From contig NZ_WUAG01000001.1 of NCBI RefSeq assembly GCF_009828855.1, positions 1,736,001-1,800,000 on the forward strand: a stretch of 64,000 bases of DNA, in the 5' to 3' direction. The DNA comes from Psychromonas sp. L1A2 (GTDB lineage: Bacteria > Pseudomonadota > Gammaproteobacteria > Enterobacterales > Psychromonadaceae). A program made the translations under genes and the position numbers. Of this stretch, positions 50,041 through 61,362 are shown piece after piece. The number at the start of each line of letters is the position of its first letter. The first letter of the stretch is position 1. The notes beneath the pieces were generated by a model that was given only the letters and a program-made list of their open reading frames with translations, did no database searches and was not told the origin of the DNA.

Positions 50041-50366
50041 CTTCTATTGACTATGTTAGTCGAGAATTAATAAATGTAGTCATTTTATCAGCTGTTCAGT
50101 ACATAAGTTAATAGCAAAAAGGTTATGTATAAAATCAATGTATTTGTTACTTGTATTTTACTCTCTAAATTTATAATCGTCTAAATAAAAGCTTATTTTT
50201 AACCTTTGAATTTAAATTTCCAATCATTTATTTCATGCCTCTATTTATATTCATAACTAGCAATAAATGAACAATTAAAGTGCGTTTTTTAACCTTTTTG
50301 CTCTTTTGCAGTGCGTTACGCTGATGACAAAGCCAGTAAAACTAGGCATATGAGATTGGCATTGTT
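50041..50366. other. Intergenic region with the divergent promoters of the cNMP/CBS and ABC genes
   Basis: No gene or repeat recognised. The divergent genes start at 49992 and 50460. The right end carries the GCTAGC operator array. Confidence 0.6.
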
Positions 50367-50420
50367 ATTGCTAGCTATTATCTTGTGATTGCTAGCAATA
50401 GTTCGTTTTTAGCTAGCAGT
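50367..50420. promoter_or_regulatory. Three GCTAGC operator-like sites exactly 21 bp apart
   Basis: GCTAGC centres lie at 50372.5, 50393.5 and 50414.5. The middle one is a perfect 12-bp palindrome, ATTGCTAGCAAT (50388-50399); the others read ATTGCTAGCTAT and TTAGCTAGCAGT. A 21-bp period is two DNA turns, so dimers would bind one face of the helix. The array ends 40 bases before the ABC operon start codon. The likely ligand is the GntR protein at 56819, as similar sites precede its gene. Confidence 0.65.
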
Positions 50421-50459
50421 GTGGGTTTTGTCTTAGCAATGAAAGGGAAGAGGTAATTT

Positions 50460-51644
50460 ATGAATTTATCAATCATTAATAAAGCGTTAAAAAAAGGATT
50501 TTATATCAGCATTTATAGTGTCTTCACTATGGGCGCCGTCACTGTTCAAGCTGTTGAGCCTATTAAAGTTGGTTTAGTAGCCGCTTTATCAGGCCAATCT
50601 GCGAAGTCAGGAGAAGCAATTACTCGTGGACTTACTATTGCAATAGATGAAATTAATGAAGCTGGTGGCGTATTGGGTCGTCCAATAGAGTTAATACGAC
50701 GTGATGATGAGAGTAATCCATCTAAAGGATTGTTGGCATCAAGAGAATTGATTCAAAGGGAAAAAGTCTCGGTACTATTTGGTGGGTTAGATACTCCAGT
50801 TTCATTGGCAATTGTACCGGTAATTAACCAATTAAAAATACCGTTTATGGGTGTGTGGGCTGCGGGTACTCCTATTACCAAAAATGGGGCAAAAGATAAT
50901 TATGCCTTTCGTGTTTCTGCGGTAGATGAAGTGGTTGATGAGGCTTTAGTTCAATATAGCGTTGATAAGTATGCGATGAAAAAGCCAGGCATGATTTTAA
51001 TTAATAATCCTTGGGGTGAGTCAAATGAAAAAGGATTAAAGCAAGCACTGTCATCACGTGGTATTGAATACACAGGAATTGAAAGAATTGAGTCAAGCGA
51101 TCTTGATGTTATTCCGCAATTAAGCCGATTAAAAGAAAAAGGGACAGATACATTATTTATGGTCGCTAATGTTGCCCCTTCTGCACAAGTTGTTAAATCA
51201 CTTGAACGAATGGGTTGGGATGTTCCAGTTGTTTCACATTGGGGACCCGCTGGAGGTCGTTTTGGTGAATTAGCAGGGCCAACTGCAGATCGTGTGCATT
51301 TCATTCAAACCTTTACTTTTACTGATACACAAAGCGGTAAAAGTGGTGAAATATTTAAAAAATTACAAGTTAAGTTTCCTGAAATTAAATCTATAGCTGA
51401 TGTTACGCCTGCGGTTGGTATCGCTAATGCTTATGATGCAATGCATTTAACGGCTTTAGCGATTGAAAAAGCGGGAAGTACTAAAGGTAAAGATATTCGT
51501 AATGGATATTATGCTATTGGCGAATATGACGGTTTGATTAAAAACTATAACAAACCTTTTGATAAAGATCAGCATGACGCGATTGGTGCAAATGATTATC
51601 TATTTACACATTTTGTAGATAACCAAATAGTACCAGTTAAGTAA
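50460..51644 (+). CDS. Liv-type ABC transporter substrate-binding protein
   Basis: This 394-residue periplasmic binding protein (signal peptide to about residue 32, TVQAVEPIK) is of the type I fold used by branched-chain amino acid, amide and urea transporters. The segment VGLVAALSGQSAKSGEAITRG is typical, and the central region has NNPWGESNEKG and PQLSRLKEKGTD. It starts an operon with two permease genes, two ATPase domains and an amidohydrolase; three GCTAGC sites precede it. GGGAAGAGG lies at a good distance from the ATG. The substrate is not identifiable, and branched-chain amino acids should not be assumed. Confidence 0.88.
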   Translation: MNLSIINKALKKGFYISIYSVFTMGAVTVQAVEPIKVGLVAALSGQSAKSGEAITRGLTIAIDEINEAGGVLGRPIELIRRDDESNPSKGLLASRELIQREKVSVLFGGLDTPVSLAIVPVINQLKIPFMGVWAAGTPITKNGAKDNYAFRVSAVDEVVDEALVQYSVDKYAMKKPGMILINNPWGESNEKGLKQALSSRGIEYTGIERIESSDLDVIPQLSRLKEKGTDTLFMVANVAPSAQVVKSLERMGWDVPVVSHWGPAGGRFGELAGPTADRVHFIQTFTFTDTQSGKSGEIFKKLQVKFPEIKSIADVTPAVGIANAYDAMHLTALAIEKAGSTKGKDIRNGYYAIGEYDGLIKNYNKPFDKDQHDAIGANDYLFTHFVDNQIVPVK

Positions 51645-51689
51645 TTTTATAAATCAGCAGGGACGCTATTTATATATTTAGGAGAAGTT

Positions 51690-52559
51690 ATGTTATCAGC
51701 CGCTATTATCACAGGCTTAGGGCTAGGCAGCATGTATGCCCTGTTAGCTTTAGGTTTTCATATAACCTATATCGTTAGTAAAACCGTTAATTTTGCTCAA
51801 GGTAGTGCAATGATGGTTGGTGCTGTTGTGGCATACACTTTTTGCATTACATGGGGCTTCCCATACTGGGTTGCCTTTTTTATCACACTCATTATTTGCG
51901 CTATTTATGGACTCGCTATTGAACGATTTTTAGTTCGCCCTTTTGCGAGTAAAGGCTCTGAAGCGTGGTTAATGGCGACGGTAGCGGGTGGAATATTAGT
52001 GGATAATTTAGCATTGTTTTCATTTGGTAAAGAGCCTCGTCAATTTGTCAGTGAATTTGCCGGTTTAAATGTAGATATCTTTAACGGTAATATTTCTGCA
52101 CTACAAATCATTATTCCATTAGTTGGTGTCGCTATTACGGTTTCTTTGGTCTTAGTTGGTAAATACACTCGCCTTGGTAAAGTGTTACAAGCATGTGTTC
52201 AAAATCCCCAATCAGCACAATTAATGGGCATCAATGTGAGTCGTGTGGTGGCGATTAGCTTTGCCATTTCAACGGTATTTGCAGCCATTTCCGGCATCTT
52301 AATCGCGCCTTTATTCGCAGTGCATTCAGACATGGGAACCTTGTTTGGATTAAAAGCATTTGCAGTGGCAATACTCGGTGGGATTGCTAGCGCATACGGT
52401 GTGTTTATGGCTGGATTAATATTTGGGCTACTTGAAGCAATTATTACTATTTATTTTGGTTCAGCTTTCACTCAAATTATAACTTTTTCATTGGTAATTG
52501 TGGCTCTGGCAATAAAACCGAATGGATTATTTGGTAAGAATCAGGAGGTCAAAGTATGA
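51690..52559 (+). CDS. Liv-type ABC transporter permease, LivH-like
   Basis: This 289-residue inner-membrane permease has about eight hydrophobic segments. Typical motifs: GLGLGSMYALLALGFHITY (N-terminus) and KYTRLGKVLQACVQNPQSAQLMGINVSRV (ATPase-contact region). A second typical segment is LGGIASAYGVFMAGLIFGLLE. It overlaps the next gene by four bases. Confidence 0.92.
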   Translation: MLSAAIITGLGLGSMYALLALGFHITYIVSKTVNFAQGSAMMVGAVVAYTFCITWGFPYWVAFFITLIICAIYGLAIERFLVRPFASKGSEAWLMATVAGGILVDNLALFSFGKEPRQFVSEFAGLNVDIFNGNISALQIIIPLVGVAITVSLVLVGKYTRLGKVLQACVQNPQSAQLMGINVSRVVAISFAISTVFAAISGILIAPLFAVHSDMGTLFGLKAFAVAILGGIASAYGVFMAGLIFGLLEAIITIYFGSAFTQIITFSLVIVALAIKPNGLFGKNQEVKV

Positions 52560-55039
52560 ATATGGCCAACAACAGATCGCTAGCATTTCTTGGGCTACTG
52601 ACTCTCATAAATTTTACGTTATGTTTTCTTTTAGATAGTTATTCATTACTTGTTTTTACTCTCTGTGTATTAACAGCACTAGTTGGTATTGGACTTAATA
52701 TTTTAATGGGCTTGAGCGGACAAATCAGCTTTGGGCATATCGCTTTTTATGCCATTGGTGCCTATGTTAGCGCGTTATTATTGATGAATGGTGTGCCCTT
52801 TATATTAGCCATACTGATGGCCGCATTTTGCTGTGGTTTGGTAGGGGCTCTCCTGGCGATACCTGCCATGCGAGTCAGTGGTCCTTATTTAGCCATGATC
52901 ACTATTGCGTTTGCCTTTGTTGTGCATCATGGACTGATTGAATGGCGTGGTTTGACTGGTGGTGGTAACGGTTTAATGGGGATCCCAATGCCTATGCTCG
53001 GTGAAATGGATCCTAACCAATTATTAGCCATCATCGCTACCTTTGCATTGAGTATTTGTTTAGTTATTTATGCTTACCTTTATAACAGTGGTTGGGGTAA
53101 AGCAATGAGATCAGTGAAAGCAAGTCCTATTGCAGCTGGTTCGTTGGGTTTCAATCCTGTTCAAACTAAAACATTAGCATTTGCATTATCGGCTTGTTTC
53201 GCAGGGTTAGCGGGTTCAATTGTACCTCCACTGATGATGTTCATTAGCCCTAGTACGTTTCCATTCTCTCAATCAATTTTATTTGTATTAGTGGTTATTA
53301 TTGGTGGGACCAGCACCTTATGGGGGCCAATTTTAGGGGCCATAATTGTTGTTCTACTTCCAGAGGTGTTATCGCCGTTAGCTGAGTATAGATTATTGAT
53401 TTTTGCAGTATTGTTATTAATTGTTTTATGGGGAGCTCCGAGAGGTATTTTAGGAGAAATAGAAAGGAGGTTCGCACGTTATAAAAAAGAATTACCGCCA
53501 AAATCAGTTAACAGAGATTTAATCGGACAATTTTATGACCGAGCGGGTAACGGCCTAAAAGCCCTAAAAGTGGAAAATATTGGTATTCAGTTTGGTGGCG
53601 TTAAAGCCGCTCAAAACGTCAGCTTTGAAGCTGAATTAGGGAAAGTAACCAGCATTATTGGTCCTAATGGCGCAGGTAAAACCACCGTATTAAATATGAT
53701 CAGTGGTTTTTATAAACCCAATCAAGGAAGTATCGAACTGTTCGAACAATTAGCAGGTAAAAGTGCATATCAAGTAGCACGTTGTGGCGTCGCAAGAACA
53801 TATCAAACAAGTCAATTATTTGATGATATGTCGGTATTAGAAAACTTATTATCGGCAATGCAAAAAGGTCAACTAGGACATCCATTCTTTTCAAGTAAAC
53901 CTGGGCAGAAAGAGCTGGCTTTGAACTTGTTATCACTGGTGGGTTACAAAGGAGGGATACATACGCCGACACAAGACTTGCCTCATGTGGATCGTCGTAT
54001 TGTTGAGATTGCAAGATCATTAGCAACGTGCCCTTGGGTTTTACTATTAGATGAACCAGCAGCAGGTTTAAGCCGTCAAGATACAGATAAGTTGTCCGCG
54101 TTATTAAAGACGATAGCTAGCTTTGGTATCGCCGTGATACTTGTGGAGCATGATATGCAATTAGTGATGAATGTGAGTGATAAAATTCTAGTGTTAGATG
54201 CAGGTAAACCCATTGCCATGGGAGACCCTAGTGATATTCGACAAAATGAAAAAGTGATCGCTGCTTATTTAGGTGGAACAAGCTATCAAGCAAGTCCAAG
54301 ACAAAAGGCTTGGAAAGCAAAAAGACAAGCGGTGTTATTTACTAAAAATTTAACGATAGATTATGGCGCTTCACCGGTTGTTGAAGGTGTTAACATTGAA
54401 GTTAATCCAGGGGAACTTGTTGCAATATTAGGGGCTAATGGCGCAGGTAAAAGTAGTATTTTACAAGCTTTAGCTGGCTTAAAACGACCTATTCAAGGAA
54501 GCATTGGATTACATGATGAATACATACAAGATCTCAATGCAAATGATATCGCTAAAAAAGGATTAGCATTAGTTCCTGAGGGGCGGCAGTTATTTGGAGA
54601 GTTGTCGGTTAAAGATAACTTATTGATTGGTGCATATTCAAGGTCTGATCAAGTCGATGAAGAACAAGAATTAAACGATATCTTAACGCGTTTCCCTAGA
54701 CTCAACGACCGAATTGATAGTCCCGCTGGTCTTCTGTCCGGTGGAGAGCAACAAATGGTGGCTGTAGGTCGAGCATTAATGGCAAAGCCAAGCATATTAT
54801 TACTTGATGAACCTTCTTTAGGGTTATCTCCCGCGATGATTGGCGAATTATATGATGCCTTGGCAGACTTACGAGATGACGGTGTAACTATTCTATTAGT
54901 TGATCAAATGGCAAATTTAGCGTTACAAGTTGCAGACAGAGCTTACGTGTTAGAAACAGGTCAAGTAGTGAAATCGGGTACAGCAGAGCAGTTGTTATCT
55001 GATCCTAAGTTAGAAGAAGCTTATATGGGGGTGAATTAA
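52556..55039 (+). CDS. Fused Liv-type ABC transporter: permease (LivM) plus two ATPases (LivG and LivF)
   Basis: This 827-residue protein joins three subunits in one frame. Residues about 1-300 are a LivM-like permease with ALVGIGLNILMGLSGQISFGH and GKAMRSVKASPIAAGSLGFN. Residues about 335-585 are a LivG-like ATPase: Walker A GPNGAGKTT near 369, Walker B WVLLLDEPAAGL, and an altered signature LPHVDRRIVEIARSL instead of LSGGQ. Residues about 595-827 are a LivF-like ATPase: Walker A GANGAGKSS near 626, signature LSGGEQQ near 728 and Walker B LLLDEPSLGLSP near 752. There are no signs of a frameshift. Fusion of LivM to LivG is known; the three-way fusion is rarer, from recall. It overlaps the amidohydrolase gene by one base. 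Confidence 0.9.
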   Translation: MNMANNRSLAFLGLLTLINFTLCFLLDSYSLLVFTLCVLTALVGIGLNILMGLSGQISFGHIAFYAIGAYVSALLLMNGVPFILAILMAAFCCGLVGALLAIPAMRVSGPYLAMITIAFAFVVHHGLIEWRGLTGGGNGLMGIPMPMLGEMDPNQLLAIIATFALSICLVIYAYLYNSGWGKAMRSVKASPIAAGSLGFNPVQTKTLAFALSACFAGLAGSIVPPLMMFISPSTFPFSQSILFVLVVIIGGTSTLWGPILGAIIVVLLPEVLSPLAEYRLLIFAVLLLIVLWGAPRGILGEIERRFARYKKELPPKSVNRDLIGQFYDRAGNGLKALKVENIGIQFGGVKAAQNVSFEAELGKVTSIIGPNGAGKTTVLNMISGFYKPNQGSIELFEQLAGKSAYQVARCGVARTYQTSQLFDDMSVLENLLSAMQKGQLGHPFFSSKPGQKELALNLLSLVGYKGGIHTPTQDLPHVDRRIVEIARSLATCPWVLLLDEPAAGLSRQDTDKLSALLKTIASFGIAVILVEHDMQLVMNVSDKILVLDAGKPIAMGDPSDIRQNEKVIAAYLGGTSYQASPRQKAWKAKRQAVLFTKNLTIDYGASPVVEGVNIEVNPGELVAILGANGAGKSSILQALAGLKRPIQGSIGLHDEYIQDLNANDIAKKGLALVPEGRQLFGELSVKDNLLIGAYSRSDQVDEEQELNDILTRFPRLNDRIDSPAGLLSGGEQQMVAVGRALMAKPSILLLDEPSLGLSPAMIGELYDALADLRDDGVTILLVDQMANLALQVADRAYVLETGQVVKSGTAEQLLSDPKLEEAYMGVN

Positions 55040-56283
55040 TGATTATCGATACTATCATTATTAATTGTTTGCTTGAGGGCAAAGAAGAATTAAGTTGTGT
55101 ATTTATTGAAAAGGGTAAATTTGTAAAATTTTTAGACCAAAGCAGTTTATTATCGTCGCAATTAAACAATGTTAAAGTCATTGATGCTAAAGGGTTGTTG
55201 ATGTTACCCCCTTTAGTAGAGACTCATGTACATTTAGATAAAGCCTGTATATTTTCTCGTTGTGAGTTACATCAAGGCACGTTATCTGAAGCTATCGAAC
55301 AGACAGCCAATGCAAAAGCCAATTTTAGTTATGACGATGTTTATAACCGAGGAAAGAAAGTCATAGAAAAAGCAATCAAACAAGGGACAAGTTACATGCG
55401 AACCCATGTAGAAATTGACCCTGTTATTGGTTTAACTGGTTTTCGAGCTATTCAGCAGTTAAAAAAAGATTATGCTTGGGGGATAACGTTATCATTATGC
55501 GTATTCCCTCAAGAAGGGTTACATAACAACGCGGGTACCTATGAGTTATTAGAGCAGGCCTTGCAATTGGGCGCAGATTTGTTGGGAGGATGCCCTTACA
55601 CTGATAGCTTGCCGGAAAAACAAATTGAAACACTTTTTGAACTCGCTGTTAAATATGACGTAGATTTAGACTTTCATTTAGATTTCGATCTCGATATTCG
55701 ACACATGTTATTACCCCATGTAATAGAAATGACGATAAAACATCATTATCAGCAACGAGTGACTGTGGGTCATGTGACAAAATTATCTACATTACCAATG
55801 GATCAATTATTAATTATTGCGGAAAGAATGTCTTCAGCTGGCGTTCATTTAACGGCTTTGCCAAGTACTGACTTGTTTCTTATGGGAAGAGAATTTGACC
55901 ATAATATTCCAAGAGGTGTCGCGCCATTAATGCCGTTAAGTAAAGCCGGGGTAAATTGCTCTATTTCAAGTAATAATATCGAAAATCCATTTACTCCTTA
56001 TGGTGATTGTTCACAAGTAAGACAAGCTAATCTATTTGCAAACATTGCGCAGTTAGCGACTAAAAATGAGTTAGTACAATGCTTAGATTGGGTTTCTTCT
56101 GATTCTGCAAAATTAATGGGAATTGAACATTATGGTATTGCACTTAATATGTCTGCGGATGCTATTTTTTTCCCCGTTAGTGATCGTGCTGAAATAATTG
56201 CGACCATTCAATCTCCGAGTTTAGGTATTAAAAATGGAAAGGTCACCTTTTCGCGTAATGATGCAACTCTTTATCCACCTTAA
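55039..56283 (+). CDS. Amidohydrolase, cytosine-deaminase-like
   Basis: This 414-residue cytoplasmic enzyme is of the metal-dependent amidohydrolase superfamily, closest to the CodA branch. Metal ligands are likely His in VETHVHLDK (about residues 61-69), His in DFHLDFD (about 213-219) and His in VGHVTKL (about 246). The Asp expected in the GHDD/GTDD position of cytosine deaminase is replaced by SSNN (SISSNNIENPF), followed by TPYGD. This is either a subfamily feature or a change of chemistry. It is the last gene of the ABC operon, so the imported compound is probably its substrate. A nitrogen-containing cyclic amide is a reasonable guess. Confidence 0.8.
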   Translation: MIIDTIIINCLLEGKEELSCVFIEKGKFVKFLDQSSLLSSQLNNVKVIDAKGLLMLPPLVETHVHLDKACIFSRCELHQGTLSEAIEQTANAKANFSYDDVYNRGKKVIEKAIKQGTSYMRTHVEIDPVIGLTGFRAIQQLKKDYAWGITLSLCVFPQEGLHNNAGTYELLEQALQLGADLLGGCPYTDSLPEKQIETLFELAVKYDVDLDFHLDFDLDIRHMLLPHVIEMTIKHHYQQRVTVGHVTKLSTLPMDQLLIIAERMSSAGVHLTALPSTDLFLMGREFDHNIPRGVAPLMPLSKAGVNCSISSNNIENPFTPYGDCSQVRQANLFANIAQLATKNELVQCLDWVSSDSAKLMGIEHYGIALNMSADAIFFPVSDRAEIIATIQSPSLGIKNGKVTFSRNDATLYPP

Positions 56284-56326
56284 TAGGCCGTCATTTATTG
56301 TTAGCGTCTAGAATATGAACATGTTG

Positions 56327-56451
56327 ATACTTTTTATATTTAATTCTACGGCTGACGATAACGAAGTTAATCTTCGAAAGACCTTAATTCACGCCTTAAA
56401 CTAAGTTATTTTAACAAGTAAAATAGATCAGTTAAGTAGTGTGATGGGTAT
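56327..56451. repeat. 125-bp decayed relative of the inverted-repeat element
   Basis: The right half matches the copy at 44965 (ATTTTAACAAGTAAAATAGATCAGTTAAGTAGTGTGATGGGTAT against ATTTTAACCAAGAAAACAGATCAGTTAATTAGTGTGATTGGTAT, split here for length). The left end ATACTTTTTATATTTAAT is weak. The left boundary is uncertain. Confidence 0.6.
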
Positions 56452-56778
56452 TACCTTTATGTCTAGAATCTGTTTATCTCACGACTTGCTGATTTTTACA
56501 TCTTGATAGGTGATGTGTATATACCTGACATAGAGGTAAATGACCTAAAATGCTTGGCGTGACTTATTGGACCAACTATTTATTTGACTTTAAATTTATC
56601 ATTCTATTTTGTTGATACTTAAACGTCCCCAGTTATGATGTATTTGGCTAGGGAGGCGTAATCATTTTTGTTTATAGTCGTGAATACTGTAATACCATGA
56701 AATATAATCATTTTAATCTCTAGTTTAGTGATATTACTTTTGATTTCATTAACCACATTGCAGTATTATATTTTATAG
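56452..56778. other. Intergenic region upstream of the GntR gene
   Basis: About 330 bases of AT-rich sequence with no recognisable gene. It should contain the regulator's promoter. A GGCTAGGG motif occurs at 56647, but only the pair at 56780-56797 looks like the operator sites found elsewhere. Confidence 0.5.
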
Positions 56779-56798
56779 CGCTAGCAATATAGCTAGGT
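56779..56798. promoter_or_regulatory. GCTAGC/GCTAGG sites in front of the GntR gene
   Basis: A GCTAGC site centred at 56782.5 (GCGCTAGCAAT) and a GCTAGG site centred at 56794.5 lie 12 bp apart, just 22 bases before the regulator's ATG. This position would suit autorepression. They resemble the 21-bp-spaced arrays at 50367 and 58327. Confidence 0.5.
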
Positions 56799-56818
56799 AT
56801 TGAGGATGTATTAATAAA

Positions 56819-57523
56819 ATGACAAAAACAGCAACTAAAGCATCGACTAACAAACAGCAAGAAATACAACGAATTATTAGTAAGCTTTCTAAAGCAGTTG
56901 CTCAACATAAATTAAAACCAGGTCAACGTTTAGTGGAAGCACAAATTGTTGAAGCTTTGAATGCTAACCGAAATCATGTGCAATCAGCACTACAACGATT
57001 AGCACTTCAACATATTGTTACTATCGAACCTAACAGAGGGTCGTTTGTTGCTCAGCCAAGCGCACAAGAAGCTAGAGAAATATTTGCTGCAAGACGTGTG
57101 GTTGAACGTGGGATTATAGAAAATATTACTCAACAAACAATACAAGATAACTGGCAAAAAATTGAACTTCATATGGAAAGCGAGCAACAAGTTACTCAAG
57201 GGAATGATAGACGAGCGATTGTTAGTACCTTGAGTCATTACCATAAGTTATTAGCTGAAATGTGCGGTAATACAGTATTAAAAGAAATGTTTGAAAATCT
57301 AATGGTACGCAGTTCGCTTATCGTTGCCTTGTATCAACATAATGATGTTCCTTCTTGTCAACATAATGAACATCAAGATATTATTGATGCACTAAAAGAA
57401 GGAAATCAAGCATTAGCAGCAAAAGTCATGCTACAACATTTACAACATTTAGAGTCTGAATTAGTGCTAGACAATACACAAAGTACTGCGACTGACTTAG
57501 TAATGGCCTTAAAAGAGTTATAA
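56819..57523 (+). CDS. GntR-family transcriptional regulator, FCD (FadR-like) subfamily
   Basis: This 234-residue regulator has an N-terminal winged helix-turn-helix (about 14-80; QRLVEAQIVEALNANRNHVQSALQRL, with the wing VTIEPNRGSFVAQPS) and an all-helical FCD ligand-binding domain (about 88-220). The conserved metal-binding pattern is seen in HYHKLLAEMCGN and HNEHQDIIDALKEGN. FCD regulators usually respond to small carboxylates or amides. It lies after the ABC-amidohydrolase operon, and GCTAGC sites precede its gene and two other units, so it is probably the local regulator. The ATG at 56819 has GAGG about 14 bases upstream, a weak fit. Confidence 0.88.
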   Translation: MTKTATKASTNKQQEIQRIISKLSKAVAQHKLKPGQRLVEAQIVEALNANRNHVQSALQRLALQHIVTIEPNRGSFVAQPSAQEAREIFAARRVVERGIIENITQQTIQDNWQKIELHMESEQQVTQGNDRRAIVSTLSHYHKLLAEMCGNTVLKEMFENLMVRSSLIVALYQHNDVPSCQHNEHQDIIDALKEGNQALAAKVMLQHLQHLESELVLDNTQSTATDLVMALKEL

Positions 57524-57569
57524 CGACTAATTAAACCCAGAAACGACTGATTTTTTAAAAAAAACAGAT

Positions 57570-57607
57570 ACTTACGTTTATATTGCTCGTTGAATGTAAG
57601 CGTAAGT
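57570..57607. terminator. 11-bp inverted repeat between convergent GntR and SnoaL-like genes
   Basis: ACTTACGTTTA pairs with the inverse TAAGCGTAAGT (one G-U pair), loop about 16 bases. It lies between two convergent stops and may terminate both; no T-run follows. Confidence 0.4.
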
Positions 57608-57667
57608 TATCTAAATATTTTAATCGTTATAACCAACAATAATAATAGTTCATTGGCTATTTAATTT

Positions 57668-58072
57668 TCACTCAGCTTCTCGATTTATTTCTGGTGTTAG
57701 AATCCATTCAGCACTGTCATTAAGCACATCCATTTTTGTTATTTTACCCTGACGAACTTCAAAACGATCAGTGTAACGATTACCATTAAATGGTGTACCA
57801 TCTTGCCATTGGCCATATAAAAAACCTATTGAATAAACCACACAATGATCTTCTTTTTGCATTGCATCATATTGTTTTATGGATTTTTTAACCCATTCAT
57901 AACGACTTTTATTAAATGCTGTTATTTGTTGTGCATTAGCCATTTCACGGCGACCTGTAAAGATGATTTTTACATCATCGTCCATGTAGGTTGCAGCAAG
58001 TTCAGGGTTAGGCTCCATTGAAGCTTCAAGGAACTTACTTACAAGGTCGATTGCCTTTTCTAACTCAGTCAT
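57668..58072 (-). CDS. NTF2/SnoaL-like small protein
   Basis: This 134-residue cytoplasmic protein has a helix-strand cone fold pattern: an N-terminal helix (ELEKAIDLVSKFLEASM), a YMDDDVKIIFTG strand, and the strand FEVRQGKITKMDVLND with the C-terminus. It resembles NTF2-like/SnoaL-like enzymes and binding proteins, which include ketosteroid isomerase and many unknown activities. The function is unknown. It lies at the edge of the ABC-amidohydrolase-GntR locus; GCTAGC sites lie 250-290 bases upstream, so I suspect it belongs to the same regulon. Confidence 0.75.
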   Translation of the reverse strand: MTELEKAIDLVSKFLEASMEPNPELAATYMDDDVKIIFTGRREMANAQQITAFNKSRYEWVKKSIKQYDAMQKEDHCVVYSIGFLYGQWQDGTPFNGNRYTDRFEVRQGKITKMDVLNDSAEWILTPEINREAE

Positions 58073-58112
58073 TTTAATTCCTTTTAAGGTTATTTGAATA
58101 TTACTATGTCTT

Positions 58113-58273
58113 ATACCAAAAGAATTAATAAGGTGATCATTCTTGCTGGTTAAAATCCTCCCTAACTGCGTTGTGAGTTTTGAAGTGAGAACAACTATCT
58201 CCTACAACTCACGCCTTATTAGTGTTAATTTTTCCTGCGCAATCTCTGAGCACTTATTTAATTCCATTGGTAT
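58113..58273. repeat. 161-bp inverted-repeat (MITE-like) element, copy A2
   Basis: It is nearly identical to the reverse complement of 46950-47110 (same 161 bp; only a handful of differences, such as AGATTG/GCAGGAAAAATTAACACTAATAAGG conserved). Ends are ATACCAAAAGAATTAATAAG and ATTTAATTCCATTGGTAT. It sits between the SnoaL-like gene (start 58072) and a pair of GCTAGC sites at 58327-58359. Confidence 0.88.
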
Positions 58274-58326
58274 TATCGGTCATCTAATATGATACATAAA
58301 TAAGTGTTTCAATTAATGTTAACAGG

Positions 58327-58359
58327 ATTGCTAGCAATTGCAATCTGATAGCTAGCTAT
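58327..58359. promoter_or_regulatory. Two GCTAGC operator-like sites 21 bp apart
   Basis: ATTGCTAGCAAT (centre 58332.5, identical 12-bp palindrome to that at 50388) and GATAGCTAGCTATT (centre 58353.5). The spacing equals that of the array at 50367. Without the 161-bp repeat between, they would lie about 90-130 bases upstream of the SnoaL-like gene. Confidence 0.6.
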
Positions 58360-59305
58360 TTTTTGGAGGGGGTAAAGTTAGATTTTTGTATAGATTTTTG
58401 TATAGTATTTTGTCTTGTAATTTATCAATAGTTAACCGTTGTTTTTTATTAATCATTCAGTTTTTATCTCCTTAGCCTCAATTCTGATTAATGAAAGCGC
58501 AATTATATTTAAAATCATAAGGTACTATTTTTTACTAATCAGTGTCGTTAGTTCTGCTTAGCTCAAGGCGAATTATTGAAGCAATAAAGTGTATATATAT
58601 TGGGTGAGGTATTGGTTGTGGATTTTAACCAATAACATGCTAAAAACATCAACCTGTTTAGATCGGTATGTATGATGCAGGCATAACTTGGATTTGATGA
58701 GGGGTTAATGTGTAAAGGCTGGTTTATATCGATATAACCATAATCTTGAAACTGTCATTAATTTAGTAAAAAACTCAACCCAGTCATAATGATGTGTAAG
58801 TTTGTTACTATATTAATTATTAATTCAGTCAAAATTTAAACCTATCCCCAAAACCATAATGAATGTTGGCATTAAGTGTTAGTCATTTCTCAATAGAAAA
58901 TCCATATTCACAATGATGAATTATTTCTATTCGTCGTAGTCTAATAAATTAGTAGCCAAATAAACTTGGTAATAACCTTAAAAGCCGATTTAAGACAAGG
59001 CAGATTCAAGGTTGAATCGTATCGTAATCAATGGATCTTAATGTGAAAGATCACCTATCTTCAATCGAAACTTAATCTCAAATTCTAATATTAATCATTA
59101 ATACGACTTATAGATTTTAGAGGCGTATTTTTTTGCATTTATTTGTTATCAAAAAGATAATTTATTGTCTTTGAGATAATGAATTAACTAATCATTATGA
59201 TAATAGGCAAAATGTCGATTAACTAACCTATTGATATACCTGTCTATATTTCATGGCACGACTTGTGCAATCTATTAAATAGTTAGACTAGAAAGGAGAG
59301 GCACT
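58360..59305. other. Long intergenic region before fpr
   Basis: About 950 bases, very AT-rich, with no coding frame, repeat or hairpin that I recognise. The fpr promoter should lie near the right end; AAGGAGAGG at 59292-59300 is a good ribosome-binding site. An undetected small RNA or leader gene cannot be excluded. Confidence 0.5.
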
Positions 59306-60079
59306 ATGCTCCAACCTTATATCGGATTCAATCAAGCAGTCGTTACAAAACGTATCGATTGGACAGAGAACTTGTTTTCCTTACGCGTAAAAGCACCATT
59401 GATAAATTATACGGCCGGACAGTTCGTTAAGCTGGCTCAGTACGATGAACACCAGCAACTTATTCGTCGTGCTTATTCGATTGTTAATCATCCAATCGAC
59501 CATAAAGCGACAGGGGAGTTGGAATTTTTAATTGTCACGGATCCCGATGGTCTACTGACTCCAAGTTTACACATGCTGGCTGTAGGTGATGAGTTATTAG
59601 TAGGCCATGAACCTGCTGGCTTTATGACCCTAGATGAAGTGCCTGAATATACACGTATTTTGTGGCTATTGAGCACGGGAACGGCGATAGGTCCTTATTT
59701 AGCAATGTTAAATGATAAGTCTATTGAACAGAGATTCGACAAAGTTGTATTAGTGAATGCAGCTAGATTTGAGGCAGAGTTGAGTTATCAAAAAGAAATT
59801 GAACAACTTAAACTGCATTATCAAGAGAGGTTAGTTTATGTACGAATTGTTTCTAGAGAACCGGTCAGCGGAGCTTTGTCAGGAAGAATACCAATGCTGC
59901 TCAAAAGTGGAGCTTTACAAAAAGCCGCTGGTGTTCCATTGGAAAGTAGTCATAGTTTTGTGTATTTATGCGGCAATCCCAATATGGTTCGGGATAGCAG
60001 CGATAGCTTGATTGAACTCGGTTTTAGTAAACATTTAAGGCGTAAACCAGGTCACTTTAGCAGTGAAAATTACTGGTAA
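59306..60079 (+). CDS. fpr: Ferredoxin/flavodoxin-NADP+ reductase
   Basis: Fpr (257 residues; E. coli 248) moves electrons between NADPH and ferredoxin or flavodoxin. FAD-binding motif RRAYSIVN (about residues 53-60), the NADP-binding STGTAIGPY (about 117-125) and the C-terminal CGNPNMVRD are intact; the last residue is Trp, as in E. coli Fpr (NYW/HYW). The ribosome-binding site AAGGAGAGG is strong. In E. coli fpr is under SoxS control; I see no clear SoxS box. Confidence 0.95.
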   Translation: MLQPYIGFNQAVVTKRIDWTENLFSLRVKAPLINYTAGQFVKLAQYDEHQQLIRRAYSIVNHPIDHKATGELEFLIVTDPDGLLTPSLHMLAVGDELLVGHEPAGFMTLDEVPEYTRILWLLSTGTAIGPYLAMLNDKSIEQRFDKVVLVNAARFEAELSYQKEIEQLKLHYQERLVYVRIVSREPVSGALSGRIPMLLKSGALQKAAGVPLESSHSFVYLCGNPNMVRDSSDSLIELGFSKHLRRKPGHFSSENYW

Positions 60080-60604: not shown

Positions 60605-60643
60605 AACAATCCAACAATCCAACAATCCAACAATCCAACAATC
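60605..60643. repeat. 8-bp tandem repeat AACAATCC, about 4.9 copies
   Basis: Four perfect AACAATCC units (60605-60636) are followed by AACAATC. It lies at the left edge of the open frame that contains the nuclease-like gene. An 8-bp unit would cause frameshifts if copy number changes. Confidence 0.9.
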
Positions 60644-61362
60644 ATGACAACATACCGCAACTGACTGAAAGACCAATCTTTAAACTTGGTCATTACAGTG
60701 TTCAGTTACCTTGGATGATGGCTAGGCAGTTAACCAGCGTAAATGTGATAAATACACTACGTCGCTTTGCAAATAAGCGAGCAGAGCTAAAAAGCGAAAC
60801 AAGCAGAATAGAAACAAGCTTAGGTGCGCAATTTAAAAAAAGAGGATTTACAGTTATTGTAGGTTATGAGCCAAAGAGAACTGATACCTTTAACCCTGGT
60901 GAAATAGACTTAATTTGTGTACTAGATAGCACCGTACTTGTTATTGAAGTCAAATCGACTTATCGAAGAACGAGTAAAAGAGAAGCGATACGCTATAAGC
61001 ATTCCACCTTAAGAAAAGCGGGTCAGCAAATAAAAAGAAAAACCGAAGCCGTGAATAGTTTGCTAGAAACGGATGAGAGCTTTCGGGCGTTTCTCGGTAT
61101 TAAAAGTTCAATGGATTGTCACGTAATAGGGTGGATAGCAGACACCAGCCTCGAATATGATCACAAGTACTTTAATGGGTATTTGAAAGTATCCGTTGAA
61201 GAGTTGCATATTGCCTTAAGAGATGAAGCTGAAATGCTGGTGGATTTTATGGCGTTGGATGAAAGCAAAGTAAAACATAATGAACTGACAACATTATATC
61301 CGCAGAGCTTCTCTGTAAGGGAATTCATAAAAGTGGTTCAAGAAAGTAACGTATGGAGCTGA
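60607..61362 (+). pseudogene. Nuclease-like (PD-D/ExK) gene with probable 5' truncation
   Basis: The frame is open from 60607. The first ATG is at 60715, which would give 215 residues, but codons before it encode plausible protein (LTERPIFKLGHYSVQLPW), which resembles inner parts of larger nuclease-related proteins. There is no ribosome-binding site at the ATG. The core GEIDLICVLDSTVLVIEVKST gives D and ExK of a restriction-type or NERD nuclease near residues 61-79 counted from that ATG. The 5' part seems to have been lost, with the break at the AACAATCC tandem repeat. It may still be expressed from 60715. It lies in a small accessory segment with yjjJ and an integrase remnant. Confidence 0.6.

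Follow-up and report, generated by a model that had tools for sequence, protein, structure and literature searches.

The analysis of a 64,000-nucleotide stretch of Psychromonas sp. L1A2 (contig NZ_WUAG01000001.1, positions 1,736,001 to 1,800,000; hereafter the window, with all positions counted from its first letter) revealed pairs of GCTAGC sites spaced by 21 base pairs (bp), which comparison with relatives indicates to be a real, conserved regulatory element. Conservation of the sites, their spacing, their overlap with a conserved sigma-54-like motif and their co-occurrence with a transporter-amidohydrolase operon were observed. Taken together with the class of the neighboring regulator, they make it quite probable that the GntR/FCD protein encoded at 56819 is a local repressor of this operon and of a SnoaL-like gene, acting through 21-bp-spaced operators on a sigma-54-like promoter. 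The sites concerned are the following.

50357-50372, + strand: sigma-54-like promoter TGGCATTGTTATTGCT, with GG at -24 and GC at -12; predicted transcription start near 50383
50368-50377, unstranded: operator O1, TTGCTAGCTA, which has TTGC in common with the -12 element
50389-50398, unstranded: operator O2, TTGCTAGCAA, 21 bp from O1
50410-50419, unstranded: operator O3, TAGCTAGCAG, a third copy recorded in the window, again at 21 bp (from O2)
56778-56799, unstranded: GCTAGC/GCTAGG pair with 12-bp spacing in front of the GntR gene, possibly autoregulatory
58328-58337, unstranded: operator TTGCTAGCAA, upstream of the SnoaL-like gene
58338-58343, - strand: central TTGCAA; in the direction of the SnoaL-like gene it takes the place of the conserved mid-spacer half-site
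58349-58358, unstranded: operator TAGCTAGCTA, 21 bp from the operator at 58328-58337

GCTAGC starts at 50370, 50391, 50412, 56780, 58330 and 58351, with a GCTAGG at 56792, 12 bp after the GCTAGC of 56780, and the 12-bp palindrome ATTGCTAGCAAT is present at both 50388 and 58327. The sequence-only reading of this DNA that preceded our analysis had reported these centers, the GCTAGC/GCTAGG pair and the shared palindrome, and all of its coordinates were right. It had also made its case depend on 21-bp pairs being rare in the genome and kept in relatives. As to the first, GCTAGC-N15-GCTAGC occurs at three places in the whole 4.34-Mb genome, all within the window locus, and a genome-wide scan of gaps from 0 to 30 returned six GCTAGC pairs, gap 15 being represented only by these three. 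The window contains 18 copies of GCTAGC against 8.93 expected, a number reached in 0 of 100 shuffles. The 10-bp TTGCTAGCAA, with up to two mismatches, was not enriched in the window (50 matches vs 48.7 expected), and TTGCTAGCWA is dispersed across the genome. At least one GCTAGC-N15-GCTAGC was found in 68 of the 394 genomes of the order, which speaks against uniqueness of the bare pattern, and at least three in 8 of them (counted by eye). The 12-bp-spaced pair, with up to two mismatches, had three window matches compared to 0.89 expected, and as 9 of 100 shuffles reached three, it is poor evidence when taken alone. What is unusual is the clustering and conservation of the sites, rather than the pattern by itself.

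Conservation was determined in a scan of named genomes, from which the best 80 (1.44 Mb) of 127 loci carrying a GntR relative were retained; within the order, a regulator match at E 1e-40 or better was present in 12 of the 394 genomes, the own genome counted. The 80 loci contained 76 GCTAGC pairs within 7-30 bp, against 1.42 expected, spread over 59 loci, and no other of the 64 six-base palindromes was paired as strongly as GCTAGC (the runner-up had a ratio of about 7). The spacing was 21 bp in 61 pairs and 22 bp in 10, and the second expectation of the sequence-only reading, conservation in relatives, was thus borne out by 71 pairs in 80 orthologous loci. Among 13 other palindromes counted likewise, one gave a single 21/22-bp pair. 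The pair-bearing loci belong to Vibrionaceae, Alteromonadaceae, Saccharospirillaceae, Marinobacteraceae, Pseudomonadaceae, Halomonadaceae and Yersiniaceae. A whole-genome search of 20 genomes chosen from the 80 found pairs in 16, and all 18 places (18/18) were inside the GntR locus.

Further sequence analyses revealed, beneath the first site, a sigma-54-like promoter that was absent from the earlier reading and that changes the mechanism. Sigma-54 promoters carry GG at -24 and GC at -12 with a fixed spacing, and this arrangement is present in the window, where TGGCATTGTTATTGCT fits 10 of 12 consensus positions, TGGCA-N6-TTGC has its single + strand occurrence at 50357-50372, and rpoN is present in the genome. 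The gene of the periplasmic binding protein, the first of the operon, was found in 57 loci, one too-partial match being dropped; TGG[CA][AC]-N6-TTGC lies upstream of it in 52 of the remaining 56, compared to 0.27% in mononucleotide shuffles, and in 51 of the 56 the G of the -12 TTGC is the first base of the distal GCTAGC. A GGT-like gene, not found in the window, had a match in 48 loci, one of them partial and dropped; a looser sigma-54 form precedes it in 42 of the other 47, compared to 0.65% in shuffles. At these promoters two GYTARC operators are located at 5/27, 9/31, 7/28, 8/30, 0/22 and similar distances from the -12 GC; the first site is 5-9 bp past the -12 GC in 38 of 42 loci, and all 39 loci with two sites keep the spacing of 21 or 22 bp. 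Because the distance to -12 varies at the GGT-like gene while the spacing holds, the latter appears to be a property of the operators. NtrC-like GCAC-N7-GTGC was present in 11 of 42 intergenic regions (raw count), too few for naming an activator, and GCGCC-N7-GGCGC, suspected as an activator site in Pseudomonas, was dropped after being found in 1 of 42.

The fine structure was analyzed in oriented pairs, of which relatives contributed 51 (55 when four readings of the window are added); 13 differed enough in the spacer to be treated as separate. Among these 13, the -24 TGG was invariant, A19 of the spacer was present in all and T15 in 11, defining a T(G/A)CAA element that follows the corresponding half-site of O1 by 11 bp and precedes that of O2 by 10 bp. 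Successive half-sites are about one helix turn apart, and the SnoaL-side pair of the window, read toward the gene, has its TTGCAA at this mid-spacer place. Extra half-sites at 7-12 nt have been described for GntR sites (PMC4494728).

The predicted regulator scored 42.1 bits for GntR (PF00392, cut-off 27) and 67.5 bits for FCD (PF07729, cut-off 24.3), which assigns it by domain content to the FCD subfamily of the GntR superfamily. Its fold model (mean predicted local distance difference test score 89) showed six main effector-domain helices at residues 82-213, the second broken at 111, and its best fold matches include 2hs5 and 4p9f, which are given as VanR members (PMC7797058). The model thus points to the VanR group, with a six-helix effector domain lacking the extra helix of FadR. 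R51, which does not vary among 40 sequences, was aligned by eye with Arg45 of Atu1419 and would be the recognition-helix arginine of the group; H142, H185 and H207 were invariant in the same 40 sequences and would suit a metal site. The operator consensus of the superfamily is TKGT/ACMA, with NanR and BioR named as departing members (PMC4494728). The present site does not carry this GT/AC box, since TTGC-TA-GCAA keeps its G and C and has the T and A of GT/AC replaced.

The genomic context was informative about what the sites follow. The exact 21/22-bp pair was present in 57 of 63 loci with the operon and in 1 of 17 without it, while GntR was present in all 80. Fifteen of the 17 operon-less loci come from genomes without the amidohydrolase at E 1e-60, and in the remaining two the amidohydrolase is on another contig, which also carries a 21-bp pair. 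That the sites track the operon more than the GntR gene is what would be seen if some other regulator, encoded elsewhere, bound the GCTAGC sites and the adjoining GntR gene were a bystander. This explanation is unlikely given what surrounds three distant GntR relatives (37-39% identity, helix ANRNHV or ANRNHI) in another gene setting: their 60 kb of GC-rich DNA contains four exact copies of TTGCTAGCAA compared to about 0.03 expected, all between called frames, one being 183 bp from an amidohydrolase relative and one between the regulator and its neighbor. These copies are the best evidence that the regulator would read this sequence. In addition, GCTAGC was absent from a 16-kb contig that carries a relative of the operon but not this GntR (a single case, with the regulator sought on that contig), and a palindrome of 10 bp whose third position is G suits a VanR-type protein such as Atu1419 (PMC7797058).

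An alternative operator was sought in the operon-less loci (group B), where weak TTGCCAGCAA-like matches were seen in a few, inconsistently, and the candidate was rejected. GCTARC-N15/16-GCTAGC occurred at five more places in four group B genomes without the amidohydrolase (L185, L186, L187, L189 and L191), and open frames of 78-269 codons overlie all five. Related palindrome layouts, spaced by 22 bp (with one degenerate site) and by 42 bp, also precede a SnoaL-like gene and a different transport operon, at L047:9440-9477 and L048:4795-4852. In L044 (9621-17970), a GntR orthologue lies near genes for xanthine dehydrogenase and guanine deaminase, without GCTAGC sites.

In the proposed mechanism of local repression, a dimer of the VanR-type FCD/GntR protein would bind the 10-bp palindrome TTGCTAGCAA, and two, here up to three, dimers would sit 21 bp apart on one face of the DNA. 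Dimers placed side by side would probably be cooperative, with a half-site lying in between. The first site of the transporter promoter holds the -12 TTGC and the next would cover approximately +7 to +16, and because of this occupancy the repressor on DNA would exclude sigma-54 RNA polymerase, provided that the promoter is active. Release would be caused by a pathway ligand, probably an N-heterocycle or its breakdown product, and an enhancer-binding activator, for which NtrC is the obvious candidate, would bring a nitrogen or carbon signal. A bolder version, to which we give slightly less than an even chance, is that a VanR-type subclass with an ANRNH(V/I) helix recognizes a new operator, TTGCTAGCAA, in the form of half-sites arrayed at intervals of one helix turn, and that the TTGC at the transporter promoter is shared by repressor and sigma-54, which would compete for the same letters.

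The protein could instead be an activator, or loop the DNA between the window regions 8 kb apart, as suggested by the VanR-type Atu1419, a tetramer able to form a DNA loop between palindromes separated by 190 bp (PMC7797058); with sites on -12 and past the predicted start, an arrangement that fits blocking and not activation, we consider this still less likely than a regulator encoded elsewhere. It is highly improbable that the repeats are mere by-products of the sigma-54 promoter, a -12 TTGC plus a chance or structural copy, since this account, which agrees with the first site being on -12 upstream of the binding-protein gene, is largely refuted by the promoter layout of the GGT-like gene and is also at odds with the SnoaL-side pair of the window, which has no -24 element.

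Several observations weigh against repression by the GntR protein as proposed here. The SnoaL-side pair, besides missing a -24 element, is about 255 bp from its gene, and in the window the mid-spacer half-site has a weak form at O1-O2 and is missing from O2-O3. No clear GCTAGC site was found at 15 GntR orthologues from Rahnella and other genera, which share the ANRNHVQ helix in other gene contexts; among the more distant relatives, L050 showed only a weak site, and none of good quality was seen in L044 or L049. The 80 loci do not represent 80 independent events, since many come from closely related Pseudomonas. No pair was found in 27 loci of more distant GntR-type proteins (96 kb), a control that carries little weight, given its flank of only 1.5 kb, within which 3 of 80 test loci show their pair; the whole-genome search of 20 genomes is the better control. 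Finally, any GCTAGC within 150 bp upstream of the GntR gene was present in only 20 of 80 loci.

This last count also bears on the claim of the sequence-only reading that the GntR protein controls all three units. For the transporter operon and the SnoaL-like gene the claim is well supported by the comparison, and for the GntR gene itself the support is weaker: a 12-bp pair with at most one mismatch precedes this gene in 2 of 80 relatives, one Vibrio (L054) and one Colwellia (L122). Because of these two counts, autoregulation is possible, yet not general. Similar 12-bp pairs before the GntR gene were seen in Vibrio L043/L054 and Colwellia L045/L122, and exact ones at other positions in L056 and L057. 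With two exact 12-bp pairs among the 80 loci, a single rule behind the 12-bp and 21-bp layouts was not proven.

Comparison with known systems showed that the parts and their combination appear to be new, while the principle is ordinary, HutC at hutU being the precedent. The footprint of HutC in Pseudomonas overlaps the sigma-54 target site of hutU (PMC12977541), an operon for a nitrogen substrate that is activated by NtrC and CbrB (PMC8871633); both there and, as predicted from sequence, in the window, a local GntR-superfamily repressor would sit over a sigma-54 site. HutC belongs to the HutC subfamily and has a TGTA-N2-TACA site, whereas the window has an FCD protein and TTGCTAGCAA, in paired sites 21 bp apart. 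Atu1419 resembles the window regulator in its fold and in a 10-bp palindrome whose position-3 G is read by the conserved Arg, but its site ATGTATACAT keeps the GT/AC signature and its two palindromes are 190 bp apart; no sigma-54 link was seen in the sections consulted (PMC7797058). NanR of Escherichia coli is likewise of the GntR type, with several dimers cooperative on closely spaced repeats (PMC8012715), of which the phasing alone is seen here. Its repeats are GGTATA and its cooperativity depends on a long N-terminal extension (PMC8012715), whereas in the window whole palindromes stand two turns apart. No description of the TTGCTAGCAA operator or its regulon was found among the matches listed in the open-licence literature, mostly titles and abstract starts. 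Through the analysis, an unassigned transport and amidohydrolase operon of several gammaproteobacterial families is provided with an operator, a probable regulator and a sigma-54-like promoter. If the proposal is true, the operators of FCD regulators would reach beyond the GT/AC signature. Cooperative binding and competition with sigma-54 can be tested directly on the fixed 21-bp pair.

The genes of the locus are the following.

50460-51644, + strand: periplasmic binding protein, first gene of the operon (Peripla_BP_6, Pfam 177.6 bits)
51690-52559, + strand: branched-chain-type ABC permease (BPD_transp_2, 121.1 bits)
52556-55039, + strand: fusion of 827 amino acids, a permease with two ATPase domains (Pfam)
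55039-56283, + strand: amidohydrolase related to cytosine deaminase (phmmer vs cytosine deaminase chains, best E 2.1e-47)
56819-57523, + strand: GntR/FCD regulator of VanR type, proposed repressor (FCD 67.5 bits, GntR 42.1 bits)
57668-58072, - strand: SnoaL/NTF2-like protein of 134 amino acids; closest solved relative 9mua, named tautomerase

The frame cluster of the fusion protein has members in 56 loci, the window counted. The closest solved structures of the amidohydrolase are cytosine deaminases, and the SnoaL/NTF2-like assignment of the 134-residue protein scores below the Pfam cut-off. Searches yielded no named substrate, and the structures 9mua and 9mup led to no relevant paper; the enzymes themselves point to a ring nitrogen compound as the substrate of the operon. 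A link to HpxW/HpxZ, proteins of allantoin breakdown, is a speculative candidate. Beyond the locus, at 59254-59269 (+ strand), TGGCACGACTTGTGCA matches 11 of 12 sigma-54 consensus positions, 37 bp before the gene of a FAD/NAD-binding oxidoreductase at 59306, and a short intergenic tandem repeat with AACAATCC units, identified by eye, is located at 60605-60645.

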